A stretch of 64,000 nucleotides of DNA from Lactiplantibacillus daoliensis (GTDB taxonomy: Bacteria > Bacillota > Bacilli > Lactobacillales > Lactobacillaceae): NCBI RefSeq assembly GCF_005405005.1, contig NZ_BJDH01000010.1, forward strand, positions 1 to 64,000, given 5' to 3'. Below, in pieces: positions 83 through 43,391 of the stretch (the first letter of the stretch is position 1; each line of letters opens with the position of its first letter). The notes below the pieces were generated by a model that saw only the letters and a list, made by a program, of their open reading frames with translations, was not told the DNA's origin and searched no databases. Position numbers and translations under genes: made by a program.

Positions 83-636
83 CACTACAGGTTGAAAGAC
101 TCAAAAACATCACAAATGTCGAAGTACCAGTGAGCTTTACGTCTAAAGTAGACTTATCTAAATTCAGCGCTCCGTCAATCAAAACCGGTGTGCTGTGGGG
201 GACGGTACCAGCCACAGTACGGTCTGGTGCCTCAATTCAAAGCAGATAAAACACGTCTTTGAATTGCCCCACGAGATTAGTCAGCCAAGAACGCTGACTA
301 ATCTTGCCAACACACCGCACACCGATTCTGACTGACTCCACTAAGCGTAAATAACGAATTTATCCAAAAAATAACTACTAATTTAGTTGGAGGCTGTTAC
401 TGATAGCATCGGACGTACAGGTGGCGTTTGACCGGCGTTCTTTGCCGACCTTACACCACGGACAGTCTGGGAGATTTGTGGTTTTAGCAAAGCTGCTGGG
501 CGAGGTTCAAGACGTTTCTAAGGCTTGAACCTCGCCCGCATGTTATCGGCAACAACCGGAAACGGTAGTAATCGACTAGTTTTCATGACCTGATTGTTGA
601 CGTAGTGGTGCAGACCGTCAATTTTTAACTTTAGTC
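83..636 (-). repeat. Copy A of a ~550-base structured repeat (full length, reversed)
   Basis: This gene-free stretch is the reverse complement of the repeats at 22252-22812 and 42856-43391. Its ends are inverted versions of each other in outline: CACTACAGGTTGAAAG (83-98) and AACTTTAGTC near 627-636. It holds two hairpin-rich domains. One includes the stem GGTTCAAG (504-511) with CTTGAACC (524-531). The other is closed by a long stem around the AAAACCGGTGTGC and GCACACCGATTCTGAC segments. No open reading frame of note and no transposase is present. It accounts for most of the first 730 bases. Confidence 0.8.
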
Positions 637-645
637 AATAACTTA

Positions 646-697
646 AATACGCCAGAACTAATCATTTAACGATGATCAGTTCTAGCGTATTCTTTTA
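646..697. terminator. Bidirectional-looking hairpin between copy A and the broken membrane-protein gene
   Basis: AATACGCCAGAACTAATCAT (646-665) pairs with ATGATCAGTTCTAGCGTATT (672-691) with two mismatches, followed on the plus strand by CTTTTA. It lies 35 bases past the end of the minus-strand reading frame at 732 and probably ends that transcript, although the minus-strand T run is short. Confidence 0.5.
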
Positions 698-731
698 TCA
701 TTATCAAATACAATAGTCACTTTATCAGGAA

Positions 732-1244
732 CTATGACCCTAAAATCAATAACAGCATGACAACGCTCAATAAAATTGTAATCATCAATACCTTGTTAAA
801 ATAATGCTTTAATTCTGGCAAGCTCGTGTCAGTTAGTGACAGCGTAAATGGCGCTTCTGCCGTCCCTTCCGATTGCCAATATTTTGTAGCAGCGAACAAT
901 AGTCGCTCATACTGCCATAATCCACACATATACCCAAGCAAGAAAATAACCAGGCCGACTAAAAGATCAAAAAAATGGCCTGTGATGAACAAACCAACAA
1001 TACTATACCCCAGTCCTAAAACGATTATCATCCAAAACACAACCAGAAATTGACGCGCATATGTGCCGTTATGATGGACCGGTTCAAATAAAAAATAACG
1101 TCGGGTTCGACTCCTTTTAAAAAAGCCATCGTTAGTCGCTTTTAAATGCAGCCACGGTAAGCGTCATAAACTAATTGACCGAATCTCCACTGAAAGCCAC
1201 AAAAGTAGCCCCCACATCATCAAGCTTAAAATAATAAATTGCAC
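732..1244 (-). pseudogene. Small membrane protein gene interrupted by an in-frame TGA
   Basis: A GTG start at 1244-1242 sits a few bases after an AGAAAGG ribosome binding site. The frame reads MQFIILSLMMWGLLLWLS and on through SISL, then meets TGA at 1166-1164 (codon 27). The same frame then continues without another stop for about 143 codons to 732. The downstream part holds a basic stretch (RSRTRRYF), two hydrophobic segments (near FWMIIVLGLGYSIVGLF and LLVGLVIFLLGYMCG), a polar loop and a final hydrophobic helix (VLMITILLSVVMLLLIL). Because start, frame and ribosome site are intact and only one codon is a stop, this looks like a recent nonsense mutation rather than an old remnant. The 102-residue tail could be translated alone from GTG at 1040, but I see no good ribosome site for it. 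I do not recognise the family. Confidence 0.6.
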
Positions 1245-1365
1245 TTATTAATCCTTTCTGGTTTATAACCAGCGTCAACGTCCAGATAACTGATTACCAC
1301 AGTTTACAAATGATTGTTTCCAAGTATAACACTATATAACGGATTATCATGTTAGTTTCGGATGA

Positions 1366-1401
1366 TAAAAAAATCCGACTCACCATGTCAGTAAGTCGGA
1401 T
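1366..1401 (-). terminator. Terminator of the LysM gene
   Basis: ATCCGACT (1373-1380) pairs with AGTCGGAT (1394-1401). Read on the minus strand the stem is followed by a T run (1367-1373), 20 bases past the stop of the LysM gene. Confidence 0.85.
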
Positions 1402-1420
1402 CGATTTGCTATTTTAAATT

Positions 1421-1996
1421 TTAGTACCAGTTATTAGCTAACCAATGTGCCTTAGCAGCACTCCATGAACCATAACGGGAGGCAACATAGCTGTCAGCAA
1501 CCTTTTCTTGGTTGGCAGCTGAGTAATCACCATTAAGATATGAGGCACTTAATTGATACTTACCAATAAATTGGCCGTTAGTGGCTGTATATGAGCCACC
1601 AGATTCTTTGTTAGCGATCCATGCTTTAGCAGCACTGTCACTATCATTGGTAGTCGTTGCAGTCGTTGTCGTATCTTGACTTGTTGATGAAGCAACATTT
1701 TCGCTTGTCGTATCAGTAGTCGTTGCAGTTGTACTTGCAGCAGCTGTGTTAGTTGAAGTTGTTGTTGCGGTCGTTGAACCGTTAACTTCAAGTTGGTCAC
1801 CGACGAAAATCAAGTTAACGTTTTTCAAGTTATTAGCCTTTTCGATGGCGTTAACAGTGGTTTGATGTTCGCTAGCAATCTTAGCGACCGTGTCACCAGA
1901 TTTAACAGTAACAGTATCGGCGTTAGCAGTCGTTGAAGCGACGGCGAACAAACCTAAAGCGGCAACAGTTGATAAAACAAGATTTTTTGCTTTCAT
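1421..1996 (-). CDS. Secreted LysM protein with Apf/transglycosylase-like C-terminus
   Basis: The 191-residue product has a clear signal peptide (residues 1-26, ending TTANA) and so is exported. A LysM peptidoglycan-binding module follows (about 27-72, with SGDTVAKIA and the NLIFVGDQL end). Next is a Thr/Ser/Ala-rich linker (about 74-120) and a conserved C-terminal domain (about 122-191) beginning AKAWIANKESGG and ending HWLANNWY. That domain resembles the C-terminus of lactobacillal aggregation-promoting-factor and resuscitation-type wall proteins, where the Glu of the KESGG motif is the presumed catalytic acid. It most likely binds and remodels peptidoglycan at the cell surface. The ribosome site AGGAG lies about 12 bases before ATG. 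The gene is monocistronic with its own terminator. Catalytic activity is inferred from family resemblance. Confidence 0.85.
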   Translation of the reverse strand: MKAKNLVLSTVAALGLFAVASTTANADTVTVKSGDTVAKIASEHQTTVNAIEKANNLKNVNLIFVGDQLEVNGSTTATTTSTNTAAASTTATTTDTTSENVASSTSQDTTTTATTTNDSDSAAKAWIANKESGGSYTATNGQFIGKYQLSASYLNGDYSAANQEKVADSYVASRYGSWSAAKAHWLANNWY

Positions 1997-2223
1997 TAAA
2001 ATACAACACTCCTATTAGTTTGGCTTAGTTTCTATCGGTTAAATTCCTATGATTCTCTTGATCAGTCATAACTAATCAACAAAATCTAGTATACCGGGTG
2101 GATGTTGCACTGGTATCAATGGGACGTTACATTTTTGAGGGTTCATTGTAATAAACGGCCGATTTCGTAATACTTTGTAATATTAATCGGTTATCTCAGC
2201 CAGTCTTTACCAGTTCAATGGTC

Positions 2224-2263
2224 AAAAAAACGCTCAACACGGCCATTTTGGCTATGTTGAGCG
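2224..2263 (-). terminator. Terminator of the ABC exporter operon
   Basis: CGCTCAACA (2231-2239) pairs with TGTTGAGCG (2255-2263). The minus-strand transcript then reads a seven-base T run (2224-2230). It lies just past the ATPase stop codon. Confidence 0.88.
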
Positions 2264-2274
2264 TCCTATTAAGT

Positions 2275-2934
2275 CTAAGCTTCGACAGTAAATTCGTGTT
2301 TTGCTAAGCGATACGATTGATCGCAGGCTGCCGCAACATCTGGTTCATGAGTGACGATAATCACACATTTATGTTGTTCGTGAGCAATTTTTTGAAATTG
2401 TTCAATGACATATTGCGTATTTTCCTCATCTAAATTCCCAGTTGGTTCATCTGCAACCACGATTTTAGCGTCACACACCATCGTCCGAGCAATCGCCACG
2501 CGCTGCTGCTGACCACCGGATAACTTCTGAACATTTTTCGTCATCTGCTCATCTGTAATTCCCAGCTTGCGTAACATGTCCATCGCAAAAGCTTTATCAC
2601 CGCGATGACTTGAATTCGTCACCGCCATTGCCGTTAACAGGTTATTTAATGGCGACATATAGGTCAATAAATTATACGATTGGAACACAATCGCGACATG
2701 TGAGCGGCGATAATTTGTTAATCCAAGTTGATTAATCGGCTCACCGTTCAACTCGATTTGACCGGCCCGTGGCTTATCTAAGCCAGCTAGCAGCGACAAA
2801 AATGTCGTTTTACCAGAACCACTTTGCCCTACAATTGCGTATGAGTGTCCCGATTTAAATTCAAGGTTCACATGCTCAAACAGGCTGTTTTCTTGGCGAT
2901 CATACCAATAACCAATATCATTTGCTTTTAACAT
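2275..2934 (-). CDS. ABC transporter ATP-binding protein, MacB/LolD type
   Basis: The product is a 219-residue ATPase that would energise the FtsX-like permease encoded just before it. Walker A is GQSGSGKTT (about residues 36-44), the signature motif is LSGGQQQ (about 138-144) and Walker B ends VVADEPTGNLD (Glu about 163). The EPTGNLD form is typical of the MacB/LolD/BceA group. I start it at ATG 2934 (MLKAND) because GGAGG lies 9-10 bases before it. A longer frame from TTG 2955 would read through that ribosome site. The gene starts 14 bases after the permease stop, so the two are co-transcribed. The substrate is unknown. The family handles lipoproteins, peptides or antimicrobial compounds. 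Confidence 0.88.
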   Translation of the reverse strand: MLKANDIGYWYDRQENSLFEHVNLEFKSGHSYAIVGQSGSGKTTFLSLLAGLDKPRAGQIELNGEPINQLGLTNYRRSHVAIVFQSYNLLTYMSPLNNLLTAMAVTNSSHRGDKAFAMDMLRKLGITDEQMTKNVQKLSGGQQQRVAIARTMVCDAKIVVADEPTGNLDEENTQYVIEQFQKIAHEQHKCVIIVTHEPDVAAACDQSYRLAKHEFTVEA

Positions 2935-2947
2935 GTTCAAATTCCTC

Positions 2948-4408
2948 CTATTCAATCAAGACTTTCTTCGGCTGCAGTCGCAGAATTCCGCCCGAGGCTA
3001 ACATAATGGACAAGAACATAATCGCTAACCCGAAACCGCCGAGTTCAACTAAATCCAGCGCCGTTACATTGATTGCTAATTCTGCTTGTTTTTGTGATGA
3101 CATTGAACTGTTGCTGCCTGGCGCACCGCCACCTTGCATATTGCCAGCCGGTTTTGTGTCAGAAGTGTTACCACCAGGAGCCCCGCCGCCAGGGCCCTGT
3201 TGCGTACTCATGGTACCGGTGGTCGTTTGTTGTGAAACGAGCTGTTTGCCAAGTTGATTCCCGACAAATTTACCGCCAGCACCCGCAATCGCAATGGAAA
3301 CAACTAAGACCATTACCATTTCGACAAAGAATTGCGCAACGATTTTCCAGCGAGCTTCACCCAATGACAGGAGCACACCAATTTCATAACGACGTTCACG
3401 AATCATTAAAATCACAATCAATGCTAAGATAATCGTTCCAGCAATGGCGACTAACCAAACGATCTTATCCGCAAATGACTTCACGTTCGCCATTGAAGCT
3501 TTGACGGTTTGATAACTACTATCATCCGTCGTCAAAGAATATCTCGACGTATTAATCAAAGCCTTCCCAGCCTTTTTGGCTGCGCTGACTTTGGCCGGAT
3601 CAGAAACATTGAAAGTAACTGAATCAGCAGTATTTTTATACTTAGTACCCTTGACCGTGTTGGCAAAAGTATATGAAGTATAAACACTGTTTGACGGATC
3701 AGTTGCGCCAGGACCTTGTTGCGTACTTGCACTAGCACTAGCTTTATAAATCCCAACGACCTTCAACGTATATGTTTGCTTCGTCCCAGTTGTGGCTTTC
3801 AACTTTATCGAGTCACCAACTTTTAAGCCATCTTCCTTGGCTAACTCACTTTCGATGACGACATTATTAGTCCCTTCATCAGCTATGGTAATCCCGCGGC
3901 CTTTGGTGATTTTGCTAGAACTATTTTCAAAAGCAGAAGTGGTGCTCGTCGAAGTGACGCCGGAAATTGCAATGTCGCCAGAACTCGTGGTACTGCCACC
4001 CATGCCTTTCATGCCACCAGCTGAACTACTGCCAGAGGTTGAAATTGCACTAAACCCTTTCGCATTAGCTGACGTAGAAACTGTCGCCGTGTAACTGGCG
4101 ATATTACTGAGTTTTGCGATCTTCTTAGCATCACTTAATTTAACCGGTGATGTCGTCAGTTTGGGCCGACTAGTCTTGCTCGTCGATGACCCACTTCGCA
4201 TCTTCTTGAATGCTGCTTCTCGATTGGCTGAGAGCGTCAGTGTTGCACCAACACGCTGCTTCGCATTACTCGTTGCCGTATCCGCGGCATTTCGAATCAA
4301 TAGGCCAGCTAAGACAAACAACATAATTGCTGACGTGACCAGAATTAATAAGATTGAACGACCTTTCTTCGCCGTTAAATTAAGCCATGCCCGTTTGAAA
4401 AAATTCAC
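2948..4408 (-). CDS. ABC transporter permease, FtsX/MacB-like, with Gly/Ser/Met-rich insert
   Basis: The 486-residue membrane partner of the ATPase has an N-terminal helix (about 15-38), a large extracellular domain (about 40-310), then three C-terminal helices (about 317-340, 365-390 and 455-475), the FtsX arrangement. Two low-complexity stretches stand out: one in the outer domain (around SSAGGMKGMGG) and one between the last helices (QQGPGGGAPGG and GGGAPGSNSS). Such Gly/Met/Pro-rich loops are not part of the core fold and may contact the wall or the substrate. It probably exports or senses an envelope compound rather than importing, as no binding protein is encoded nearby. The ATG is preceded by GAGG. 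No regulator is adjacent. Confidence 0.82.
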   Translation of the reverse strand: MNFFKRAWLNLTAKKGRSILLILVTSAIMLFVLAGLLIRNAADTATSNAKQRVGATLTLSANREAAFKKMRSGSSTSKTSRPKLTTSPVKLSDAKKIAKLSNIASYTATVSTSANAKGFSAISTSGSSSAGGMKGMGGSTTSSGDIAISGVTSTSTTSAFENSSSKITKGRGITIADEGTNNVVIESELAKEDGLKVGDSIKLKATTGTKQTYTLKVVGIYKASASASTQQGPGATDPSNSVYTSYTFANTVKGTKYKNTADSVTFNVSDPAKVSAAKKAGKALINTSRYSLTTDDSSYQTVKASMANVKSFADKIVWLVAIAGTIILALIVILMIRERRYEIGVLLSLGEARWKIVAQFFVEMVMVLVVSIAIAGAGGKFVGNQLGKQLVSQQTTTGTMSTQQGPGGGAPGGNTSDTKPAGNMQGGGAPGSNSSMSSQKQAELAINVTALDLVELGGFGLAIMFLSIMLASGGILRLQPKKVLIE

Positions 4409-4574
4409 GTTTGGCCCTCCTCAAAATTAAGTATTAGTATTGCTTTGAACTGAACAGTCCTCAATTTACAGGGCAAAAAGGATTAAACTATGAACTTCTT
4501 GGGGTCTTTCGGTGGTTAGTTACCGAATATTTTTGATAAGGCATTGCTAATGCAGTGATGAGCGGGGTTGTGGT

Positions 4575-4603
4575 CAAAAAAACCAACGAAAGAACGTCGC
4601 TGG
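4575..4603 (-). terminator. Terminator of the tag-xre unit
   Basis: CCAACGA (4583-4589) pairs with TCGCTGG (4597-4603). On the minus strand a T run (4576-4582) follows. Confidence 0.75.
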
Positions 4604-4617
4604 CTTTAGAATGCTAT

Positions 4618-4872
4618 TTAGATAAACTGAATCGTCAATCGCCGATTCATTGCAGTGGCGATATCAGACAAGCGATTCAGTGACACATTTATTGAACCGT
4701 TTTCGATTTCAACAACTGTCGCCGGTGGTTGCACAATCAGTGCAGCCAATTCGCGTTGACTCATTCCAAGTTTCTCACGAAGATCACGAACCTTGACCCC
4801 CAAGTCTAAACGGGCACTTTTTATCGCCACTAACTCGTCAGATTCTGAATCTCTCAAATCAGCGCCCCTCAT
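4618..4872 (-). CDS. XRE-family helix-turn-helix protein
   Basis: This small DNA-binding protein of about 84 residues is dominated by one XRE/Cro-type domain. The helix-turn-helix is around LREKLGMSQRELAALI, followed by the recognition-helix region PPATVVEIENG and SLNRLSDIATAM. Spacing to the end matches antitoxin-like or stand-alone XRE proteins such as HigA, but no toxin gene is adjacent. The start is uncertain. ATG 4872 overlaps the last codons of tag, and a TTG about 15 bases further in is better placed behind GAGGGG. It overlaps the 3' end of tag by 14 bases, so it is translationally coupled to the repair gene. It might act as autoregulator of that pair, which is inference. Confidence 0.75.
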   Translation of the reverse strand: MRGADLRDSESDELVAIKSARLDLGVKVRDLREKLGMSQRELAALIVQPPATVVEIENGSINVSLNRLSDIATAMNRRLTIQFI

Positions 4873-5422
4873 TCTCAGGTGCCCAATCACAGTCAGCCAA
4901 ATGATCATTAATCAGACCAGCACCTTGCAAATACGAATAAATGGTCGTTGGCCCGACAAACTTGAAACCGCGCTTTTTCAATGCCTTGGAAAGCCGTTTA
5001 GCTAAGTCATTAGTCGCTGGTATTTCAGCCGAAGTTTGCCAAGCCTGACGAATCGGCTGGTCATCGACAAATGACCAAAGCCAGTCAGCATAAGACGAAC
5101 TCGCTGACCACTTCTGAATCACTTTAGCATTATTAATTGTCGCCGCTAACTTTTGACGATGGCGAATAATACGCTCATCTTGCAGTAAACGGTCAAGATC
5201 CGCATCAGTCATCGCGGCAACACGCGCAATATCATAATTATAAAAGTCTTCCTTGAAAGCCGCCCGCTTATTTAAAACCGTCTGCCAACTTAACCCAGCC
5301 TGATAAGTCTCTAGTGACAACAGTTCAAATAACTTTTGTTGATCGTGTTGTGGTCGTCCCCACTCGTTATCATGATATTCCTGCATTAATGGTGTCGAAT
5401 TTGCCCAATCGCATCTTTTCAT
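4859..5422 (-). CDS. tag: DNA-3-methyladenine glycosylase I
   Basis: The product is a base-excision enzyme that removes 3-methyladenine from alkylated DNA in the cytoplasm. Its 187 residues match the Tag family length. The zinc-binding set known from E. coli Tag is visible: Cys4 (MKRCDW), His17 (EYHDNEWG), and a C-terminal His and Cys at about 174 and 178 (DHLADCDW). The active-site region LSLETYQAGLSW is intact. The start is ATG 5422, directly behind GGAGG. A longer frame from TTG 5437 would include that ribosome site. The xre gene overlaps its 3' end. Confidence 0.95.
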   Translation of the reverse strand: MKRCDWANSTPLMQEYHDNEWGRPQHDQQKLFELLSLETYQAGLSWQTVLNKRAAFKEDFYNYDIARVAAMTDADLDRLLQDERIIRHRQKLAATINNAKVIQKWSASSSYADWLWSFVDDQPIRQAWQTSAEIPATNDLAKRLSKALKKRGFKFVGPTTIYSYLQGAGLINDHLADCDWAPENEGR

Positions 5423-5500
5423 CTGTCCTACCTCCAACGTTTCATCTTTGATTGATTACAGCATACCACAAGAGCACAAACGTATGTTCTTGTTTAACTA

Positions 5501-5546
5501 AAAAATAATGTCCGTAGCTTAGTCTACTGACCAAGCTAACGGACAT
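5501..5546 (-). terminator. Terminator of the MmpL-like gene
   Basis: ATGTCCGTAGCTT (5508-5520) pairs with AAGCTAACGGACAT (5533-5546) with one bulge. The minus-strand T run is at 5501-5505. It lies about 30 bases past the stop. Confidence 0.85.
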
Positions 5547-5575
5547 CATTTAAATAAACACTTTAATTCAAAAAC

Positions 5576-9727: not shown

Positions 9728-9856
9728 TGTTATATCCCTTCCCTAATTCAGATTCTAAAACGACATCGTGACATTTAATCAACAATGTGTTTAAATAATA
9801 ACAACATGTTAGTTGAAAATTACAGAAAATTCAAGCAACAATTTTCATAATTTCGT

Positions 9857-9895: not shown

Positions 9896-9909
9896 AGGTG
9901 AAATAATTA

Positions 9910-12161: not shown

Positions 12162-12172
12162 TCCTTTTTCAC

Positions 12173-14816: not shown

Positions 14817-14821
14817 CTAAG

Positions 14822-14937
14822 GGTTGAACCGGTCCTTCGTTCACATATTATCAACAACAACCAGAAGCGGCAGTAATCGACTAGTTTTCAACGCCTGATT
14901 ATTGACATAGTGGCACAGACCGGCAATTATTAATCAA
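14822..14937 (-). repeat. Fragment B of the structured repeat (one end only)
   Basis: About 115 bases match the terminal part of copy A (roughly 515-636), including AGTAATCGACTAGTTTTCA, the CAGACCGGCAATT end and a degraded version of the arm around GAACCGGTCC. Everything beyond the first hairpin arm is missing. It lies between the LCP gene and its apparent terminator. Confidence 0.7.
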
Positions 14938-22234: not shown

Positions 22235-22251
22235 TCATTTATTAAGTTATC

Positions 22252-22812
22252 ATCTAAAAGTTGCAAGTAGAAAATTGCGACCTACAACACTACGTCAATA
22301 ATCAGGTAATGAAAACTAGTCGAATACCGCCGCTTCCAGTTGTTACTGATAACATGCAGATGAGGGACCGGTTCAAGCCTTAGGAACGTCTTGAACCTCG
22401 CCCGAAAGCTTTGCTAAGATCGCAAATCTCCCGAACCGTCCGTGGTGTAAGGCCGGCAAAGAACGTCGGTCAAACGCCACCTGCACGTCCGATGCTATCA
22501 GTAACAACCTCCAGCTAAGTCAGTGGTTTTTTTGGCTAAATTCGTTATTTACGTTTAGCGGAGTCAGTCGGAATCGGTGTGCAGTGTCGGTAAGATTAGT
22601 CGGCGTTTTTAGCTGACTAAGCTTGCGGGGCAATTCAAAGACGTGTTTTTCCGGCTTTGAATTGAGGCACCAGACCGTACCTTGGCTGGCGCCATCCCCC
22701 ACAGCACACCGATTTTGACTGACGGCGCGCTAAAGTTGGTAAGTCTACTTTAGATGTGACGGTCACTGGTACTGGGACATTTGTGATGTTTTTCCTATTT
22801 TCAACGTTTAGT
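22252..22812 (+). repeat. Copy C of the structured repeat (full length)
   Basis: The roughly 560-base element ends in similar inverted arms: TCTAAAAGTTGCAAG at the left and TTTTCAACGTTTAGTG (22798-22813) at the right. Domain 1 includes GGTTCAAG (22370-22377) with CTTGAACC (22390-22397). Domain 2 includes an imperfect stem, 22590-22602 with 22614-22626, and an outer stem built from AATCGGTGTGC and GCACACCGATT. It carries no gene. Its right end lies two bases from the stop codon of the P-type ATPase gene on the opposite strand. Confidence 0.82.
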
Positions 22813-22814
22813 GA

Positions 22815-25154
22815 TCATTTCCATCGAATCCGACTCAGCACGCGGTGACCAAGACCATTTTGTAACAGAATGAAGACCGGATAAGCACTTAACATTAACG
22901 GGAGATAAATCATCGCCAAATGCCAATCCAGCAAATTGACTAATGAGAAGATTCGCCCACCAAACAGAAAAGCGAGAACGAACAACGTTGCCATCAACGA
23001 AACGAGACCAATCTTAAATCGATTTAATGGCCGCGCCGCAATCAAAAGTGCATTTAAGCTAATAATTCCGGTCAGTAAAACGTTCAGCGTTGAGGTCGTT
23101 GCAAAATCCAACTGGAATTCTGCGCCAAGCAAATCAATTACGACGATATAACCAACAACAGCAATCGCGGCCGGTACCGCAATTTCCATCACTTGCTTCA
23201 TAAAACGACTGGTAATTCGCGTATAGTCCGGTTGCAGTGCTAAGAAGAACGTTGGAATCCCAACCATTAGTGACGAGATTGGTGTCAGCTGAATGGGCTC
23301 AAATGGATAACTGTGGGGCATAAAAATAAAGATGACCGTCAATGCGACGGAATACATGGTTTTAATCAAATATAACGCGGCAACCCGTTCGATATTATTA
23401 ATTACTCGGCGACCTTCGTTCAAAACCTGAATCATCGCATCAAAATTAGAATCCAATAGCACGAAATCAGCCAAGCTCTTTGTCGCTTCACTCCCACTGG
23501 CCATCGCGATACTACAATCAGATTGACGCATGGCCAACAAATCATTCACCCCATCGCCAGTCATCGCTACCGTATGGCCCGCAGTTTGGTAGGCTTTGAT
23601 CAAGCCAGCCTTTTGCTGGGGTGTCACTCGGCCAAAAACATTATAGGTTGCGACCAACTGATCATAGTCTGGTGTTGTCCCGACCTGACTCATATCAATT
23701 AACTGATCCGCGCCAGCAATGCCCGCACGCTTAGCGATACTTGCAACCGTGACGGGATTATCACCCGAAATGACCTTCAACGCAACGTCTTGTTTGGCAA
23801 AAAAGCCAAAAGTTGCTTGCGCATTTGGCCGCAACTCATCCGTAATTAAGATCAACCCTAACGCTTCTGGTTCAGTCGGCTTGGGTGTCGTCAATTGTGC
23901 TACTTTAGCTAGTACTAAGACACGAAACCCCTGTTGTGCGAGTTGGTGAATTCGCTGTTTTAAAGCTGGTGAGACTTCCCTGAAAATGAATTCAGGAGCG
24001 CCCATGACATACGCTTGACCATCAAAACTCGCACCGCTCCATTTACGACCAGACGAAAACGGCATGACTTCATCCGGTGACACGACTGGTTTGCCTAATC
24101 CCGACTGAATCGCCTGAGCCGTTTCGTTATCGTCATTAATCGCACTCACCAATTTAGCAAGGGTGTCCTGAACCGTTGCCGCTGCAATATCGGCCCAAGG
24201 TTCAATCCGTTCAAATTTTAAATTACCACTCGTGATGGTCCCCGTTTTATCGAGACATAAAATATCAACCCGCGCTAAAGCTTCAATTGCAGGTAATTCT
24301 CGCACTAAAACTTGATGACGCCCCAACGTAAAGGCCCCCGCAGCCAAGGCAACCGACGTCAACAACACCAAGCCTTCTGGAATCATGCCGACCATCGCAG
24401 CTACCGTTCCAAGAATGGCTCGATTTTGACCAGCCCCACGCATTAGGGTGGAGATAAATAAGGCGGTCCCTAACGGAATAATGGTGAACGTTAATATTTT
24501 GATAATCCGATTAATAATCGTCAGCAATTGACTGGGCGTCCGATGATCCGACTTGGCCGAACGCGCTAATTGCTTAATATAGCTCCCGTGGCCCACCACC
24601 GTAGCTTGTACGGTTCCATGACCACCTAATAGCACACTCCCAGAAATCAGATTATCTCCGTTGCCTTTGATAATCGGTTCAGACTCACCGGTAATTTGCG
24701 ATTCGTCTACTTCTAACCCAGTAGTTTCGCGAACGACAACATCCACCGGCAGTTGATCCCCACGAGTCACGCTAATCAAGTCATCTTGCACCAAGTCAGC
24801 TTGATCGACAGCAACCAACTGCCCATCACGCCAAACATTCATCTTGGCCGCTGACAAAATCGTCAATTTATCCACTTGGCGTTTCGCTCGAATTTCCTGA
24901 AAAATACCAATCGCCGTATTCATAATCACAACAAATAAAAATAGTAAATTTTTGTAACTTCCTGTCAGGAAGACCAAGCAACCTAACAAGACATTAATTA
25001 AGTTAAATAAGGTCAATAAGTTATCTCGAAAAATTTGCTGCACACTTCTCGTCAGTGGCGGTAGTGGTTCATTGTGTTGACCCGCCGCCATCCGTTGTTG
25101 AACCTCGGCAGTCGTTAAGCCTTGTTTTAACGGTGATAAGTCCCGTTCGGTCAT
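22815..25154 (-). CDS. P-type cation-transporting ATPase
   Basis: The 779-residue ion pump carries the phosphorylation motif LCLDKTGTITSG, the TGES-type actuator motif (QITGESEP), the hinge GDGVNDLLAMRQSD, and PEGL in the fourth membrane helix (GMIPEGLVLLTS). The membrane region near the end (about 640-775) has further helices. The PEGL motif and overall length resemble CtpE/CaxP-type pumps linked to calcium or other cations, rather than the PEGL-containing SERCA type with longer C-termini. The ion is not certain. Its 3' end touches repeat copy C, and I see no ordinary terminator of its own. An AGGGGGCTTACC segment lies before the ATG. Confidence 0.88.
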   Translation of the reverse strand: MTERDLSPLKQGLTTAEVQQRMAAGQHNEPLPPLTRSVQQIFRDNLLTLFNLINVLLGCLVFLTGSYKNLLFLFVVIMNTAIGIFQEIRAKRQVDKLTILSAAKMNVWRDGQLVAVDQADLVQDDLISVTRGDQLPVDVVVRETTGLEVDESQITGESEPIIKGNGDNLISGSVLLGGHGTVQATVVGHGSYIKQLARSAKSDHRTPSQLLTIINRIIKILTFTIIPLGTALFISTLMRGAGQNRAILGTVAAMVGMIPEGLVLLTSVALAAGAFTLGRHQVLVRELPAIEALARVDILCLDKTGTITSGNLKFERIEPWADIAAATVQDTLAKLVSAINDDNETAQAIQSGLGKPVVSPDEVMPFSSGRKWSGASFDGQAYVMGAPEFIFREVSPALKQRIHQLAQQGFRVLVLAKVAQLTTPKPTEPEALGLILITDELRPNAQATFGFFAKQDVALKVISGDNPVTVASIAKRAGIAGADQLIDMSQVGTTPDYDQLVATYNVFGRVTPQQKAGLIKAYQTAGHTVAMTGDGVNDLLAMRQSDCSIAMASGSEATKSLADFVLLDSNFDAMIQVLNEGRRVINNIERVAALYLIKTMYSVALTVIFIFMPHSYPFEPIQLTPISSLMVGIPTFFLALQPDYTRITSRFMKQVMEIAVPAAIAVVGYIVVIDLLGAEFQLDFATTSTLNVLLTGIISLNALLIAARPLNRFKIGLVSLMATLFVLAFLFGGRIFSLVNLLDWHLAMIYLPLMLSAYPVFILLQNGLGHRVLSRIRWK

Positions 25155-29618: not shown

Positions 29619-29902
29619 GACTAAAGTTGAATTACAGGAATTATCCACCGACAGCGTGCTAAATTTGAACCAGTCTATTTCGGTTACTGGTATATTTGTG
29701 TCGCTTCCGGTTGTTGCCGATAACATGCGGACGAGGGACCGGTTCAAGCCTGGAAGTTTTGCCAAAACCACAAATCTCCCAGACCGTTCTTCGGCTGGCG
29801 CCGTCCCCCACAGCACACCGATTTTGACTGACGGAGTGCTCGGTTTAGACGTAAAGGGTATTTGGTTCGTACCGTTTCTTTGAGCCTTTCAATCTTTAGT
29901 TA
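29619..29902 (+). repeat. Copy D of the structured repeat (internally deleted)
   Basis: Both ends are kept: GACTAAAGTTGAATTAC (29619-29635) and CTTTCAATCTTTAGTTA (29886-29902), inverted versions of each other. The middle joins the first part of domain 1 (TTGCCGATAACATGCGGAC, GGTTCAAGCC) to the last part of domain 2 (GGCTGGCGCCGTCC, GCACACCGATTTTGACTGAC). About 300 bases are missing compared with copies C and E. Confidence 0.78.
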
Positions 29903-33319: not shown

Positions 33320-33363
33320 GCTGGACCCCCTCATTGATTTTTGTTTCCGTTTACAATTAGCTT

Positions 33364-34303: not shown

Positions 34304-34308
34304 GACTT

Positions 34309-34352
34309 AGAAGACACCTGAGTTGGTCAATTAAACTCAAGCGTCTTTTTTA
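34309..34352 (+). terminator. Terminator after the 258-residue gene
   Basis: AGACACCTGAGTT (34312-34324) pairs imperfectly with AACTCAAGCGTCT (34334-34346), followed by six T. Confidence 0.75.
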
Positions 34353-34455
34353 TGGCCTAAATATGCACCCAGTTGATAAACTGCCATCACAATCGTCAAT
34401 TGGTCTATGTTAACTCATTTGCTTTTTACAATATAAAAGTTAGTTTGGATTGGCT

Positions 34456-34484
34456 TTGACAATCAATAATTCAGTCATTTATCT
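34456..34484 (+). promoter_or_regulatory. Candidate promoter of the aspartase gene
   Basis: TTGACA (34456-34461) and TTATCT (34479-34484) are 17 bases apart, 120 bases before the start. The rest of the 250-base gap shows no other clear signal to me. Confidence 0.45.
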
Positions 34485-34603
34485 CGATAACTTAATATTA
34501 TTCAGAGTTAGTGATCAAGTATTGTATTAAAACCGTAATGGTCTAAACTCTAGTCATTCATGTAAGAAGTTCTAACATGAAATCTAAATAAGAAGGTTAT
34601 GAC

Positions 34604-36001: not shown

Positions 36002-36012
36002 TGCAGGCACAC

Positions 36013-36052
36013 AAAAAAGGAGGTTGAGACCATCAAGTCTCGACCTCCTTTT
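36013..36052. terminator. Terminator of the aspartase gene
   Basis: AAAAGGAGGTTGAGAC (36015-36030) pairs with GTCTCGACCTCCTTTT (36037-36052). A and T runs on both sides also suit the minus-strand treA transcript. Confidence 0.88.
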
Positions 36053-36058
36053 AATCAT

Positions 36059-36091
36059 TGCCTAAAGGCTGCAAGTTGAAAATGCTTGTCC
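36059..36091 (+). repeat. End remnant of the structured repeat
   Basis: CCTAAAGGCTGCAAGTTGAA and the following bases resemble the left end of copy C (TCTAAAAGTTGCAAGTAGAA) at about three quarters of positions. Nothing else of the element is present. It sits between the aspA terminator and the treA stop. Confidence 0.4.
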
Positions 36092-36104
36092 TGATTTCCT
36101 CCTC

Positions 36105-37754: not shown

Positions 37755-37775
37755 GTCTCTTTCCCTCTCTGCTCG

Positions 37776-38498
37776 TTACTTTTTAGTCCGGCGTGCAAAA
37801 TCACGAAAGCGGAATTTATCGGCGCGATGCCGTGATTCGGTAAATTGAAACGGCGTGGCATCTGCCAAGCTCGTAACACTACGAACCACCGCAACATAGG
37901 CGCCAGGATCGAGGTGGAGCTGCTCACGGTCTTCGTCATTCGCCGGTTCCATCGTAATTTCCTTCGTCGCATACGCAATTTCTAAGCCTAAATCATTTTC
38001 AAAATAAGCATATAAAGAATCTTGCGCTGCCGCCTTAGGTAATTTCGGGACGATTGCTGTTAAAATATAATCTTTATCAATAATATCTGGTTCACCATCA
38101 ATGACCCGTAGCCGTTTAACTGCCGTGACTGGTTCTGCCGTCATCTCCACCCTCAACGAAGTAAACATCTGAACGGGCAAACTGACGTGTTCTTCAAATC
38201 CATACACCACATTTTCAGTGGTTACATTCATCTTTTCTGCTAATTCCTTGTAACTCACAATGCCTGAGACGGGAAATTCGTATTGTCGATGTTCAATAAC
38301 GATCGACCCTTTGCCACGAATTTTTTGAATATAGCCATCCTCAGCTAATTCCGCCAAGGCTTTACGGCCAGTTTCACGCGAGATGCCATAGAGCTGACAG
38401 AGCTGATTTTCACTTGGCAAATACGTGCCAGGCTGATAAACATCTCGATCAATTTTTTGTCGCAAGTCATCATAAACTAGTGCTGATTTATTCACCAT
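37776..38498 (-). CDS. treR: Trehalose operon repressor, GntR family
   Basis: The 240-residue regulator has a GntR winged helix (about 1-70): YDDLRQKIDRDVYQPGTYLP, SENQLCQLYGISRETGRKAL, then AELAEDGYIQKIRGKGSIV. A UTRA ligand domain follows (about 90-235, including VTAVKRLRVIDGEPDIIDKD and ESRHRADKFRFRDFARRTKK). In the family trehalose 6-phosphate releases it from DNA. AAGGAGG precedes ATG. It is the first gene of treR-treA, driven by the promoter at 38542-38570 whose spacer is its own operator. Confidence 0.9.
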   Translation of the reverse strand: MVNKSALVYDDLRQKIDRDVYQPGTYLPSENQLCQLYGISRETGRKALAELAEDGYIQKIRGKGSIVIEHRQYEFPVSGIVSYKELAEKMNVTTENVVYGFEEHVSLPVQMFTSLRVEMTAEPVTAVKRLRVIDGEPDIIDKDYILTAIVPKLPKAAAQDSLYAYFENDLGLEIAYATKEITMEPANDEDREQLHLDPGAYVAVVRSVTSLADATPFQFTESRHRADKFRFRDFARRTKK

Positions 38499-38541
38499 TC
38501 AAACTAGCCTCCTTAGCATTCAGTAATCGCTTACAGGATTC

Positions 38542-38570
38542 ATTTTAAACTTGTTTAGACAAGTTGTCAA
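38542..38570 (-). promoter_or_regulatory. tre promoter with TreR operator in the spacer
   Basis: On the minus strand TTGACA (38570-38565) and TAAAAT (38547-38542) are 17 bases apart. The spacer itself is the palindrome ACTTGT with ACAAGT (within 38548-38565), like the known TreR operator. A bound repressor would cover the promoter completely. Confidence 0.8.
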
Positions 38571-38626
38571 TATTTGAATTTTAACCGCTTAAAACTGCGC
38601 TATCACAACGATTCGTCAAATCTTTT

Positions 38627-38643
38627 GACTTGTATAACAAGTC
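38627..38643. promoter_or_regulatory. Second TreR-like operator
   Basis: GACTTGTATAACAAGTC is a near-perfect palindrome that resembles the operator in the tre promoter. It lies about 57 bases upstream of the -35 box and may allow looping between two repressor dimers. Confidence 0.65.
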
Positions 38644-38669
38644 TATACAGGTTGACATAAAAACGCGAC

Positions 38670-38698
38670 AAAAAAGACCAAGTCTGCTTGACTTGGTC
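38670..38698 (-). terminator. Terminator of the PnuC-family gene
   Basis: GACCAAGTC (38676-38684) pairs perfectly with GACTTGGTC (38690-38698). The minus-strand T run is at 38670-38675. Confidence 0.88.
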
Positions 38699-38733
38699 CA
38701 ACTGCCGGAAAGTTGATTCCGAGTGATTTATTT

Positions 38734-39516
38734 TTAGGCTTGGTGATTTAGGCCATAAACATTAGCTTCAGTTGATTTCTCAGCTGCCGCACTAGCCTTT
38801 TCTTCTGCAATTAACCGGGCCCGTTCGTGCTTGTTATACCAAGGTGAAACGGTGAAAGCTAACACATCATTCATCAAATAAACTGAACTGTTGATGAACA
38901 TTGCTAACGTTGCGGAACCCTGACGGAATGAAATGAACCAGAGCACCATTTGTGCTAATCCTGAAGCAATCCACCAGAAGTACTGATTGTTGTAGCGTAA
39001 GAAGCAAATAACCCCCGCCGTTAAACAGATCGCAAAACTAATCGCATCGACCCATGGCCGTGGATCATCAGTTAGCGCCCCGATTAAGTAACCAGAAATA
39101 CCATAAACAACTAGCGTTGAGACAATGGCAACAATCCAAGTTTTACCAGTGAATTTCCGGATTTTTGAAACCATGTTGACATTCCAGCTAGCACTCAGTA
39201 ACACTGGAATATCCAAAGTAACCACATAGGCCAATTGTTCACCAATGCTTAAATAGTTTTTAGCTGAAAAGCCCACCACAATAAAGCAAGCTGCCGAGAT
39301 AACCCCTAATAAACCGTTAACTGATTTTGCAGCATTGATTGCTAAAACACATAGAACCCCCAAAGTGGTCCCAATAAATGTTAGAATAGATAACGCCGTG
39401 ATTGGTGCACTGACCAAAGTCATCACTTGGCAACCTAAGCTAAAGTAGAACAAATAGTAGTTTTGTTGTGGCCAACCTTTTAATTGGTGCGATAAAAATT
39501 TAAAATAATTACTCAA
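38734..39516 (-). CDS. PnuC-family nucleoside transporter, probably for deoxynucleosides (PnuN-like)
   Basis: The membrane protein of about 260 residues has seven or eight helices and PnuC hallmarks: LLGVISAACFIVVGFSAKNY, then FWWIASGLAQMVLWF and FINSSVYLMNDVLAF. Classical PnuC imports nicotinamide riboside. Here two NrdR-like boxes upstream point instead to the deoxynucleoside branch (called PnuN in comparative studies of the NrdR regulon), because NrdR controls ribonucleotide reductase genes. I choose TTG 39516 (MSNYFKFLSHQLKG), which follows AGAGG at 8-9 bases. A longer frame from TTG 39543 reads through that ribosome site. The C-terminal tail is charged (EEKASAAAEKS). Confidence 0.78.
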   Translation of the reverse strand: MSNYFKFLSHQLKGWPQQNYYLFYFSLGCQVMTLVSAPITALSILTFIGTTLGVLCVLAINAAKSVNGLLGVISAACFIVVGFSAKNYLSIGEQLAYVVTLDIPVLLSASWNVNMVSKIRKFTGKTWIVAIVSTLVVYGISGYLIGALTDDPRPWVDAISFAICLTAGVICFLRYNNQYFWWIASGLAQMVLWFISFRQGSATLAMFINSSVYLMNDVLAFTVSPWYNKHERARLIAEEKASAAAEKSTEANVYGLNHQA

Positions 39517-39587
39517 AATCAACTTCCTCTTTCCGTCTATCAAGATAACGTTGCGTCATCATAGTTGGCCAACTATCACGTTTCACA

Positions 39588-39634
39588 CCACAATATATAG
39601 TGTTTTCTGTTTGAAACAACACTATATATTGTAT
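39588..39634. promoter_or_regulatory. Pair of NrdR-like boxes
   Basis: CCACAATATATAGTGT (39588-39603) and ACACTATATATTGTAT (39619-39634) match the NrdR box ACACWATATMTWGTGT at 14 and 15 of 16 positions. Their centres are 31 bases apart, three helical turns, as in known NrdR sites. They lie about 75-120 bases before the PnuC-family gene. A TATATT -10 box inside the promoter-proximal box is possible. Confidence 0.75.
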
Positions 39635-39829
39635 CATTATCTTTTTGGATGGAAAGGACTAATTTTCAAATATTAATTCAGTTGTAAGCAACGAATCCGG
39701 TTACTTCCCGTCAGCACGGTGGTTTTGTGCGGACGAATTTTTTTGAATTTTTTTCAAATTAACCGCCGTTACCACCAAGACTCAAATTGGGACTTATTCT
39801 GACTAATCGCCGCTCGCAAACATTGCCTT

Positions 39830-39858
39830 TTGTCGGAACTAGTCGCCTGGAGTATACT
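39830..39858 (+). promoter_or_regulatory. Promoter of the methionine aminopeptidase gene
   Basis: TTGTCG (39830-39835) and TATACT (39853-39858) are 17 bases apart, 50 bases before the start. Confidence 0.65.
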
Positions 39859-39908
39859 AGATATGGAAACTTTTTTACTTACAATATTCAAATTTTTTTG
39901 GAGGAAAT

Positions 39909-40697
39909 ATGATAACTCTTAAATCAGATCGAGAGATTAAGGGCATGCAAGCAGCCGGCGACATCATGGTCGGTTTGTTCCATGCACTCGAAGATTACAT
40001 TAAGCCTGGGTTGACGACCTGGGATGTTGATCACTTTGCCTATGAATACATCATTGCACACGATGCCACTCCTGGTGAACTCAACTTTGAAGGCTACAAA
40101 TACTCAACTTGTGTCAGCGTTAATGACATGATTTGTCACGGTTGCCCAAGTAAAGACATCTTAATTAAAGACGGTGACTTGTTGAAAGTCGATACCGTCA
40201 TTAACTATCACGGCTACTTAAGCGACTCTTGCCACGCCTTTGTTGCTGGTAAGACCTCACCAGAAGTTCAAAAATTAATGGACGTGACCTTGAAAGCCTT
40301 ATACCTTGGCATCGACCAAGCCGTTGTTGGCAACCGGATCGGTGACATTGGCTGGGCCATTCAAAACTACGCTGAAAACCAAATGGGTTATGGCGTGGTT
40401 CGCGAATACATCGGTCATGGTATCGGACCGACGATGCACGAAAAGCCTGACGTTCCTCATTACGGCGAAGCTGGTCATGGGACACGCTTAAAGGCCGGCA
40501 TGACCATCACCATTGAACCAATGGTTAACGTTGGTGACTGGCGTTCTGGCGAAACCGCCGATGATGGTTGGACGGTTCGCACGATGGACGGTAGTTTAAG
40601 CTGCCAATATGAACATACTTTAGTCGTCACAGATGATGGTCCTAAGATTTTATCCTCTTACGATCATGATTTTGATGCTAAATATTTATTGAAATAA
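39909..40697 (+). CDS. map: Methionine aminopeptidase, type I
   Basis: The 262-residue cytoplasmic metalloprotease removes the first methionine of new proteins. Metal-binding residues are present in order: Asp in LLKVDTVINY, Asp in YLSDSCHAFVAG, His in IGHGIGPTMHEKP, Glu in TITIEPMVNVG, and Glu in QYEHTLVVTD. The start MITLKSDREIKGMQAAGDIM is typical. TTGGAGG precedes ATG. A strong terminator follows. This looks like a full-length functional gene. Confidence 0.95.
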   Translation: MITLKSDREIKGMQAAGDIMVGLFHALEDYIKPGLTTWDVDHFAYEYIIAHDATPGELNFEGYKYSTCVSVNDMICHGCPSKDILIKDGDLLKVDTVINYHGYLSDSCHAFVAGKTSPEVQKLMDVTLKALYLGIDQAVVGNRIGDIGWAIQNYAENQMGYGVVREYIGHGIGPTMHEKPDVPHYGEAGHGTRLKAGMTITIEPMVNVGDWRSGETADDGWTVRTMDGSLSCQYEHTLVVTDDGPKILSSYDHDFDAKYLLK

Positions 40698-40701
40698 AAC
40701 C

Positions 40702-40741
40702 AAAAAGTTCCGCTGACAATTGATGTCAACGGAACTTTTTT
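40702..40741 (+). terminator. Terminator of map
   Basis: AAAAAGTTCCG (40702-40712) pairs with CGGAACTTTTT (40730-40740) and extends into a loop with its own pairing (TGACA, TGTCA). Confidence 0.85.
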
Positions 40742-40779
40742 GTGTTAAACGCCTGGCAATTGTGAGACAAACACTGTAT

Positions 40780-42129
40780 TTAAATTAATTCCAAAAAAGT
40801 CTGATAATCCTTCTCCACCTGGGTCACGTAAGCCTCGGCCCAGTTAGCCATGGCATCGTCAAACTTAGCAGAACTACCAATATAGCCGCGAATCATTGCA
40901 GCAGTTGGACTTTGTGCATGCGCCTGTGCCAAAATCATTGCACAAGTATTAGCATAAGCTTGGAACCGTCCCCATGACAACGTTGGAATATCAATTGATT
41001 CTTTCATATCACGGAACTGCCGAACATAAAAACTCTTGTCGGCCATCTGGAAATAGCCTAAAAAGACATCTGAGGTCGATTGTAAAATTCGCTGTGAACT
41101 GACAATTCGTTGGCCTTCGGTGAGTTCCATTGCCGCAGTTAAGGCTTGCCGTGCTTGACTCCCGACTTTACGAGTGGGCAAAGCTTCCTTGATTTGAAGC
41201 ACCATGTGACTACCATCTGTACTGGTAAGTAGGACTAAATAGCACAGCGATCCAAAACTTCCTACCCCCACACTATGGCGGATAATATCTGTGACTTCAT
41301 ATTGTGACAAAAGTAAGGCGACATCCGTCCGTACCGTCTGAAGATACTGGGTAATTCCTTGCTTCAAGGCTTGATAAGTCTTTTCATCAATATGCACCGA
41401 TCGTGGCGCGTTATCCTTAAATTGACGCTCGCCTTGGCTATTCGTCCAAGTAAACTTCCGGACCACTTGTTCCGAGTTTCGCTTCGTCGCTTTTTTAACT
41501 AAATCAGCAATGAAATCAGCTGTATCTGCCGGTTCACCACCAAAGTTCAAGACTGCTTGAACTTCATTATCCCGATAAAAACGTTCAAGCGTCGTCTGAT
41601 TAAACATCCGCTTGATGGCTTCACGGTAGCTTGCGCTGGCTTCGTGGACCAGGGCATCGACTTTTTTCGGCTTAAAATCAGAATTTCGAGCCGCTAGAAT
41701 AACACTGACTAGTAGCCGCCGTAGATCCCATTCCCATGGATGTACACCTGCTTCATCAAAATCATTCAAATCGAAAACTAAGCGACGTTCTGGTGAGGCA
41801 TAGAAGCCAAAGTTCCCAATGTGCGCGTCGCCGCACACAACGGCGGGAATTTCAGTTGAGTTTTGATAATCTAAATCATAATCCATTAATTCAACGGAGC
41901 CACGAAAAAAGGCAAACGCAGACGTGGACATCCGTTCTTGGCGTAGTGGTAATAATTCTGGCACTAACATCTCACGGACCCGTTTTAAATAGCCCGCCGC
42001 GTCTCGTTCTACTGGCTTGAAAGTCCCGAGCTGTTCAAACGACGTGACTAACCGGCGTGCTTTGCCTAACGCAATCAGTTCGGCCACGGTATGATGTTGG
42101 CGAATATGTGATAAATCAAGTGGTGGCAT
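40780..42129 (-). CDS. DUF2252 family protein
   Basis: The protein of about 449 residues has the DUF2252 layout: FAFFRGSVELMDYDL, then VCGDAHIGNFGFYASPERRL and VFDLNDFDEAGVHPWEWDLR. These residues resemble a kinase-like fold (HxxN and DxD metal-binding patterns in aminoglycoside-phosphotransferase relatives). Further on are GSFGSLCYLVLL and LQIKEALPT. The role of the family is unknown; small-molecule phosphotransfer is an inference from the motif pattern. I use ATG 42129 (MPPLDL), nine bases after AAAGGA. It is divergent from ndk. Confidence 0.85.
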   Translation of the reverse strand: MPPLDLSHIRQHHTVAELIALGKARRLVTSFEQLGTFKPVERDAAGYLKRVREMLVPELLPLRQERMSTSAFAFFRGSVELMDYDLDYQNSTEIPAVVCGDAHIGNFGFYASPERRLVFDLNDFDEAGVHPWEWDLRRLLVSVILAARNSDFKPKKVDALVHEASASYREAIKRMFNQTTLERFYRDNEVQAVLNFGGEPADTADFIADLVKKATKRNSEQVVRKFTWTNSQGERQFKDNAPRSVHIDEKTYQALKQGITQYLQTVRTDVALLLSQYEVTDIIRHSVGVGSFGSLCYLVLLTSTDGSHMVLQIKEALPTRKVGSQARQALTAAMELTEGQRIVSSQRILQSTSDVFLGYFQMADKSFYVRQFRDMKESIDIPTLSWGRFQAYANTCAMILAQAHAQSPTAAMIRGYIGSSAKFDDAMANWAEAYVTQVEKDYQTFLELI

Positions 42130-42335
42130 GAACATCAATCCTTTGTTTTAAACTGTTTCCATTATAACGATTTATGTTGTCAAAACGAAAGGATTACGCC
42201 GACAATTTCATTAAATTAATTGTCAGCAGTCATCAATTAAACCGGTCTTCCATTGACGCCCGTCGCGGATTCAGCTACAATTTAAGTTATCAAGGAATGG
42301 AAGCGTTTTCTAAAACTAAGGAGGAATTTCATACT

Positions 42336-42806
42336 ATGGCAAATTCAGAAAAAACTTTAGTACTAGTTAAACCCGATGGTGTCGCTGAAGGACATATTGG
42401 GGATATCATTTCCCGTTTAGAACGTAAAAGTTATCAGATTACCGCTTTGAAAGTTATCACCGCAACCCCTGAGCAACTACGGCAACATTATCGTGAAAAG
42501 GTTGAAAAACCTTACTTTGCCGAAATTGAAACTTACATGACGGAAGGCCCACTTGTTGCCATTATTGTGAGTGGCACTGGCGTTGTTAAGTCTGTCCATA
42601 ACTTGGCCGGCAAAACCAGACCAAATGATGCGCAACCTGGAACGATTCGAGGCGACTTTGCTCATGAATATCCAGATGGTATCTTGCGTAACATTATTCA
42701 TACTTCCGACAGTCGTGAAAATGCGCACCACGAAATCGCAATTTGGTTCCCCGAACTAGCGGTAAAAGCGCGCAAAGATGAAGCCACTAAGGCTGCTAAA
42801 AAATAA
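42336..42806 (+). CDS. ndk: Nucleoside diphosphate kinase
   Basis: The 156-residue enzyme transfers the terminal phosphate between nucleoside triphosphates and diphosphates. The active-site His is in RNIIHTSDSRENAHHEI, with the KPDGV nucleotide segment at the start (TLVLVKPDGVAEG) and RPNDAQPGTIRGDFA before it. The usual family motif is NIIHGSDS. Here Thr replaces Gly, a minor change. ATG 42336 follows AAGGAGG. A frame extending back to 42174 lacks any ribosome site and is not used. A terminator follows at 42815. Confidence 0.93.
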   Translation: MANSEKTLVLVKPDGVAEGHIGDIISRLERKSYQITALKVITATPEQLRQHYREKVEKPYFAEIETYMTEGPLVAIIVSGTGVVKSVHNLAGKTRPNDAQPGTIRGDFAHEYPDGILRNIIHTSDSRENAHHEIAIWFPELAVKARKDEATKAAKK

Positions 42807-42814
42807 CCTATCAG

Positions 42815-42851
42815 ACACATTGGTGCTTTACTGGCCAATGTGTTTTTTTAG
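42815..42851 (+). terminator. Terminator of ndk
   Basis: ACACATTGG pairs with CCAATGTGT around a short loop, followed by seven T ending near 42850. It separates ndk from repeat copy E. Confidence 0.85.
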
Positions 42852-42855
42852 TTAA

Positions 42856-43391
42856 CACTAAAGGTTGAAAGTTAAAAAATACTGGTCTGCACGAGGACGG
42901 CAACAATCAGGTAATGAAAACTAGTCGCTTACTGCCGTTTCCTGTTGTTGCCGATAACATGCGGACGAGGGACCGGCGCAAGCCTTAGGGACGTCTTGCG
43001 CCTCGCCCGAAAGCTTTGCAAAAACCGCAAATCTCCCGAACCGTCCGTGGTGTAAGTCCGGCAAAGAAACGCCGGGCAAACGCCACCTGCACGTCCGATG
43101 CTACCAGCAACAAGCTCCAACTAATCAGTGGTTTTGAGGGGATAAATCATTTAATTACACTTAGCGGAGTCAGTCAAAATCGGTGTGCAGTGTCGGCGAG
43201 AATAGTCGGCATTCTTGGCTGACTATTCTCGCGGGGCAATTCAAAGACGTGGTTTTTCGGCTTTGAAGTGAGGCGCCAGACCGTACTTTGGCTGGCACCG
43301 TCCCCCACAGCACACCGATTTTGACTGATGGAGTACTTTCAGAAACAACCGCGGTAACTGACATAGACGGTGTTCACAGTAACCTTTAATC
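42856..43391 (+). repeat. Copy E of the structured repeat (near full length)
   Basis: Left end CACTAAAGGTTGAAAG; the right end is weaker (AACCTTTAA near 43382). Domain 1 is closed by 42945-42966 with 43093-43113. It contains GGCGCAAG (42975-42982) with CTTGCGCC (42995-43002), and GTGGTGTAAGTCCGGC with GCCGGGCAAACGCCAC. Domain 2 is closed by 43169-43188 with 43310-43328 and contains the perfect 12-bp stem GCGAGAATAGTC (43196-43207) with GACTATTCTCGC (43221-43232). The last 60 bases before the right end differ from copies A, C and D. No gene is present. It fills most of the 720-base gap after ndk; from 43392 to 43530 I see no clear feature apart from a ribosome site. Confidence 0.8.

Follow-up and report, generated by a model that had tools for sequence, protein, structure and literature searches.

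A probable IS4-type MITE of Lactiplantibacillus daoliensis carrying a mirrored pair of a conserved structured unit

A gene-free repeat of about 550 bp with 14-bp inverted ends is present in multiple copies in the genome of Lactiplantibacillus daoliensis, and several of these lie in the 64,000-nucleotide stretch analysed here, referred to as the window (assembly GCF_005405005.1, contig NZ_BJDH01000010.1, positions 1 to 64,000). Taken as a whole, the evidence makes it likely that the repeat is a miniature inverted-repeat transposable element (MITE), mobilised by an IS4-family transposase, which carries as its cargo two copies, arranged head to head, of a single conserved structured unit of about 170 nt. 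An initial annotation of the window had offered a MITE-like element and a family of structured RNAs as alternatives; the results reported below support the view that the two hold together.

The copies in the window were searched for with an nhmmer profile built from 31 copies, and with the end motif CTAAAGGTTGAAAG, which stands at one end with its complement at the opposite end. The proposed family of repeats with inverted ends was recovered, the long copies scoring E values of 1e-167 to 1e-187. Long copy 2 (22254..22812, + strand; 619.9 bits, E 7.7e-187) covers the full profile (positions 2-562) and keeps its two ends. Long copy 1 (84..634, - strand; 604.6 bits, E 3.2e-182; profile positions 10-562) has its right inverted end at 85-107, with one mismatch to the motif, and has partly lost its left end, as it begins at profile position 10. 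Long copy 3 (42858..43337, + strand; 556.2 bits, E 1.5e-167) comprises an exact left end and the left-hand (D1) and right-hand (D2) domains, and matches the profile from position 2 to 480 of 563; beyond that, loss or rearrangement has left neither the right arm nor the right end recognisable. No open reading frame (ORF) of at least 80 aa overlaps any of the three; the deleted copy described further below overlaps an ORF of 95 aa on the - strand. Across the whole genome, a query copy (22245-22815) gave 40 scored places among 126 first-look candidates, and these copies, the query itself aside, are 81-90% identical to it; chance is excluded as the source of the window repeats by these 40 places together with E values of 1.5e-167 or lower for the long copies. 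The unit model introduced below, run on two contigs of the same genome (365 kb of 2.63 Mb), found 13 right-hand units scoring at least 119 bits and 14 left-hand ones at 45-69 bits, plus weaker matches, from which about a hundred elements per genome can be extrapolated.

Evidence for mobility comes from a sister genome (G020), among others, in which the identity between ten full-length copies is 93.4-98.9%. At 11 of 17 sites there, the ends are immediately flanked by direct repeats of 7 bp or longer, compared with 1 of 272 combinations when flanks were swapped between copies (the count covers 17 of 19 elements, with L086 and the divergent L095/L103 left out). The corresponding figures for the window's genome are 7 of 30 sites and 7 of 870 swapped flanks; its copies are older than those in G020. 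A target duplication of about 8-9 bp would accompany insertion. The comparison of occupied and empty sites suggested by the initial annotation could be made between two genomes, G004 and G016, that are colinear over long blocks and mostly 90-97% identical: one site is filled in G004, with GTTAAATAAC on either side of the element, and vacant in G016, which has a single GTTAAATAA. Orthologous sites of this pair also show internal deletions, in one case with the D2 unit alone missing. At one shared intergenic site the element stands in opposite orientations in the two genomes (G004 contig C67:189383-189788; G016 contig C100:107833-108243).

A transposase with matching ends, the partner that the MITE-like reading called for, was found in G020 as well. 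There a facing pair of end motifs, 1567 bp apart, encloses an ORF of 457 aa that fully matches the NCBIfam IS4-family model NF049925 (460.3 bits, cut-off 250) as well as Pfam DDE_5 and DDE_Tnp_1. This insertion sequence and the MITE have just 13-16 bp in common, at their ends; the former carries the transposase and none of the units, whereas the latter carries the units. Related transposases with the same or nearly the same ends are present in G008 (56%), in G019 (57%, with one internal stop) and, as a split frame, in G010, and contig C3 of G020 holds a truncated relative without such ends nearby; within the genus, a transposase match at E 1e-60 was obtained in 4 of 21 genomes. An IS4-family transposase of this kind would recognise the CTAAAGGTTGAAAG ends and mobilise the element in trans, which, judged on sequence, is very probably how it moved. 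Assignment to the MITEs is well supported by four features of the sequence: the lack of a coding frame, terminal inverted repeats, target duplications, and an autonomous partner, namely a matching insertion sequence in a related genome. Like other MITEs it is intergenic; unlike typical ones it is long for the class, and its interior is not derived from the insertion sequence but consists of an inverted pair of units whose structure is conserved beyond the transposon.

The interior had been described as two structured domains. Their structure is borne out, their independence is not: a profile of D2, after three iterations, also recruited D1 on the opposite strand, and the idea of two unrelated domains was rejected on that account. 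R1, a covariance model for which 23 D2 units drawn from 7 genomes were used, recovers D1 of all three long window copies at full length, on the strand opposite D2. In copy 1 the D2 unit lies at 171..338 (unit sense -; 155.1 bits, E 8.2e-46) and D1 at 390..560 (unit sense +; 45.0 bits, E 5.9e-12); in copy 2 D1 lies at 22335..22511 (unit sense -; 61.0 bits, E 7.2e-17) and D2 at 22561..22726 (unit sense +; 169.9 bits, E 2.4e-50); in copy 3 D1 lies at 42940..43117 (unit sense -; 50.8 bits, E 9.9e-14) and D2 at 43167..43332 (unit sense +; 173.6 bits, E 1.7e-51). Since a model made from D2 alone matches D1 on the other strand, the element is a head-to-head pair of one unit of about 170 nt. The opposite strand of D2 itself also gives R1 matches, because the stems are long, but these are weak (26-37 bits), and the D1 matches are stronger (45-61 bits) and located elsewhere. 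In the R1 profile run, 88 D2 matches were D1 read backwards and were excluded from the counts.

Each unit has a long closing stem, followed by hairpin 1 and then by hairpins 2 and 3. In an alignment made from sequence only (A3), 93.4% of cells are paired, compared with 32-41% in slid controls; two-sided changes occur in 37 of 54 pairs, a number that shuffled alignments, averaging 20.4, never reached in 500 trials, and covariation is 0.420 versus 0.173 after shuffling. Larger sets gave 46 of 54 two-sided pairs (A4; 38 units, 24 loci) and 42 of 54 (A8; 32 units from 31 streptococcal-type loci), although A4 and A8, like the alignment A7, had been fitted to the models and are biased in their favour. 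There can be very little doubt that the conserved fold is real. Hairpins 2 and 3 are probably held together by a short GGGG/CCCC-type helix, which was recognised in the alignment columns and has few two-sided changes. In A3 and A8, hairpins 2 and 3 each carry an AGAC...GGCU motif with a bulged A, which is perhaps a repeated binding site. The units are also better kept than the rest of the element. Identity to the consensus over 31 chosen copies is 93% for D1 and D2, compared with 82-87% for the linker, arms and ends, and when all matches of at least 60 bits in two contigs are taken (12-18 copies per region) the values are 93.0% for D1 and 91.1% for D2 against 82-89%. Units that are kept beside decayed ends suggest that constraint has acted since insertion; part of this conservation could come from gene conversion or from the copying of one arm onto the other.

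The unit extends well beyond the element of the window. Genome searches with R1, and with a second model (R2) trained on 55 units that included some from outside Lactobacillaceae, used strict filters and scored few candidates per genome, and the counts are therefore lower bounds. R1 places the unit in at least 82 of the 397 Lactobacillaceae genomes, spread over 9 of 40 genera, and in at least 22 of 395 Lactobacillales genomes; with R2 the latter count is at least 68 of 395. Within one genus (g20), taken to be Streptococcus from gene order and from the Rfam overlap discussed below, R2 finds the unit in at least 102 of 197 genomes, mostly once per genome. Among 398 Bacillota genomes R2 matched at least two, the window's own and one of g20, both Lactobacillales. 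A pattern scan of named genomes returned at least 120 stretches, and all 80 titles among the matches listed are lactobacilli, the genera being Levilactobacillus, Companilactobacillus, Secundilactobacillus, Lactiplantibacillus and unassigned Lactobacillus. Of 24 loci from other species, 11 show the head-to-head arrangement, as do 7 of the 19 that come from outside the genus. Units in other genera occur without the ends of the window element. Two genomes of another family (f5), G510 and G685 (L349-L352), have at least seven units each. No match to a window copy was found in the plasmid and phage collections; a streptococcal-type unit likewise matched nothing among the phages, and a stretch carrying a unit from a different genus matched nothing among the plasmids.

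The streptococcal-type loci have a recurrent genomic place. Among 31 such loci, which were chosen by score rather than at random, 23 have the unit between purD and purE, always on the sense strand (gene names come from NCBIfam for one locus and from similarity to it for the rest). In three others its neighbours are a TatD-type gene and a ribonuclease M5 gene (one locus was scanned, the other two were judged by ORF starts), and in two it precedes a dTDP-glucose dehydratase gene (one scanned); single loci have it before tuf, near a lactate dehydrogenase-like gene, and beside rbfA, the last being antisense, so that the sense orientation holds in 30 of 31. Units of this type also occur as direct rather than mirrored tandems (L368:1294-1437 and 1501-1643; G1142 contig C1:405662 and 405868). 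The covariation, the spread through family and order as seen with covariance models, and this operon place in Streptococcus-like genomes uphold the structured-RNA half of the first proposal.

A terminator-like site lies on at least one side of 25 of 47 copies of the element; for intergenic points drawn at random from the own genome the count is 69 of 540 (odds ratio 7.8, p 6e-10), a control that was unmatched for distance to gene ends. The element would tend to be found beside intrinsic terminators. Of 28 own-genome copies with two neighbours seen, 13 lie between convergent genes, against 34 of 180 element-free gaps, for which the ORF cut-offs were slightly different. One-way insertion after a terminator was considered and rejected, the sites being to the left in 6 and 7 cases and to the right in 5 and 8 (G020 and own genome, respectively).

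Whether the fold matters as RNA or as DNA can be approached through its mismatches: if the RNA is what counts, G-U states should exceed A-C states in the transcribed sense. Read in unit sense, and restricted to pairs whose commonest state is Watson-Crick, the G-U:A-C counts are 227:76 in D2 and 161:85 in D1. Three observations count against a purely selfish DNA, in which palindromic filler has its arms kept complementary by template switching or gene conversion and has no RNA function: the D2 excess, the place of the unit between purD and purE in 23 of 31 streptococcal-type loci, and the conservation of loops and junctions across genera where stems vary, the last of which arm copying does not predict. 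Such a view would accommodate the large excess of two-sided over one-sided changes in the streptococcal-type set (397 cells versus few wobble states), the loss of hairpin domains, whole or in part, at orthologous sites, and the parity of G-U and A-C in D1 once all pairs are admitted; on balance it seems unlikely. The fold might instead operate at the level of DNA, single-stranded or extruded, where a transposase, a recombinase or another host protein could recognise it, for instance, with RNA irrelevant. A mobile and symmetric element of two inverted units would suit such a role, as would the general rarity of non-Watson-Crick states in the streptococcal-type set, whereas the unit-sense G-U excess in D1 and D2, with wobble-commonest pairs left out, and the sense orientation of 30 of 31 streptococcal-type loci speak against it, and we regard it as quite improbable. 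Equally improbable, in our estimation, is that each unit is a free-standing small RNA gene acting in trans, a paralogue of the streptococcal RNA SSRC8. That proposal draws on the 12 of 12 loci (streptococcal-type and f5) that overlap the Rfam family SSRC8_2 on the unit strand, and on SSRC8 having been reported on Northern blots, with ends mapped by rapid amplification of cDNA ends, in S. pyogenes (PMC3675131). Against it stand the scores of these matches, all of them short of the gathering threshold (24.9-39.8 of 72 bits), and their coverage of 58-98 of 281 model positions; nor did inspection by eye, made without a promoter tool, show any promoter in the linker of the window's copies.

Against an IS4-mobilised element whose paired units serve as RNA, several observations have to be set. 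When every pair is included, neither strand is favoured in D1 (G-U:A-C 162:163); a DNA-only reading of this figure is weakened, not removed, by reading D1 in unit sense with the wobble-commonest pairs left out. Nine streptococcal-type and f5 units give 7:8, and a larger streptococcal set gives 18:8 (p 0.08), a count confined to 41 of the 54 pairs of A8, the remaining pairs being poorly paired. Because G-U and A-C are both rare in the streptococcal-type sets, arm-to-arm copying or a DNA fold keeps some plausibility there. The evidence for expression is the published Northern signal only, and that for a partial relative, SSRC8; the terminator control was unmatched for closeness to gene ends; and in G363, G351 and G322, which belong to other genera, inspection by eye showed no terminal repeats in common. 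Finally, the transposase search gave nothing at E 1e-60 in the window's genome, and its end-motif matches, read by eye, include no two ends that face each other at a distance of 1-3 kb; the missing transposase match implies that movement there is past or that its source has been lost. The balance favours RNA without settling the matter.

Beyond the long copies, the shorter pieces noticed at the outset were recovered too. A fragment at 14817..14933 (89.3 bits, E 3.6e-26) consists of the left arm and the first part of D1 (profile 16-132), its strand now being corrected to -. The deleted copy at 29682..29900 (+ strand; nhmmer pieces of 83.6 and 74.5 bits) fuses profile positions 60-188 to 419-562 and keeps its right end, with three mismatches to the end motif. 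The deletion ran from the first half of D1 to the second half of D2, and the resulting chimera (29677-29835, + strand) scores as one full-length unit at 26.4 bits. A left-end remnant lies at 36062..36082 (+ strand; three mismatches in 21 to the end motif). The sole match above an Rfam gathering score in the window is a thiamine pyrophosphate (TPP) riboswitch at 61357-61449 (+ strand; 62.2 bits, gathering score 54.3).

No named family of Rfam 15 fits the unit, as first supposed: at relaxed thresholds, sub-threshold matches were all that a window copy and ten loci from other species produced. The isrN match of the window copy was dismissed as chance, and T-box and mir-335 matches in L184 fell below threshold; the T-box match (L184:1312-1432, - strand; 46.5 of 93 bits) adjoins a unit. 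A partial relative, SSRC8_2 (Streptococcus sRNA (small RNA) 8, RF02616), overlaps the hairpin 2-3 region of the unit on the same strand and has no Rfam match in the window; the overlap is sub-threshold and covers a short part of its model, and the part of PMC3675131 consulted describes no repeat or mirrored pair for SSRC8. The pneumococcal BOX, RUP and SPRITE sequences are not known to resemble the unit. They are likewise multi-copy, structured and MITE-like and are thought to affect co-transcribed genes, but are rare outside S. pneumoniae and S. mitis, according to PMC3049150. The MRSC-65-2 motif is also multi-copy and strongly covarying, is possibly selfish, and has been left open between RNA and DNA; it differs in being a single long stem with a UYCCGG repeat in diverse phyla (PMC11109978), whereas the present unit is multi-branched and was found here just in Lactobacillales. 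In the excerpt of PMC2267715 consulted, L. johnsonii is the sole Lactobacillus mentioned. No published description of the element was found, although several search results were off-topic, so that its absence from print is not established.

The unit may act as RNA within transcripts that run through gene ends or between the genes of an operon, shaping 3'-end processing, stability or read-through, a proposal for which we see the chances as roughly even; the inverted pair would then supply a sense unit whichever strand is transcribed. More tentatively, and with doubt outweighing confidence, the unit could be a new class of large structured RNA of Lactobacillales with a molecular partner of its own, kept as a single operon copy in many streptococci and carried in lactobacilli as transposon cargo that spread as mirrored pairs to gene ends, selection keeping the fold while the ends decay.

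A mobile element is here connected with a covarying fold, common to lactobacilli and streptococci, of which Rfam 15 covers only a part. It provides a series that includes single copies in pur operons, pairs without the ends in other genera, young transposing copies, and old copies with kept folds and decayed ends. The covariance models would annotate many intergenic regions in such genomes, and the series allows a direct test, in harmless food bacteria, of whether transposons spread functional RNAs.

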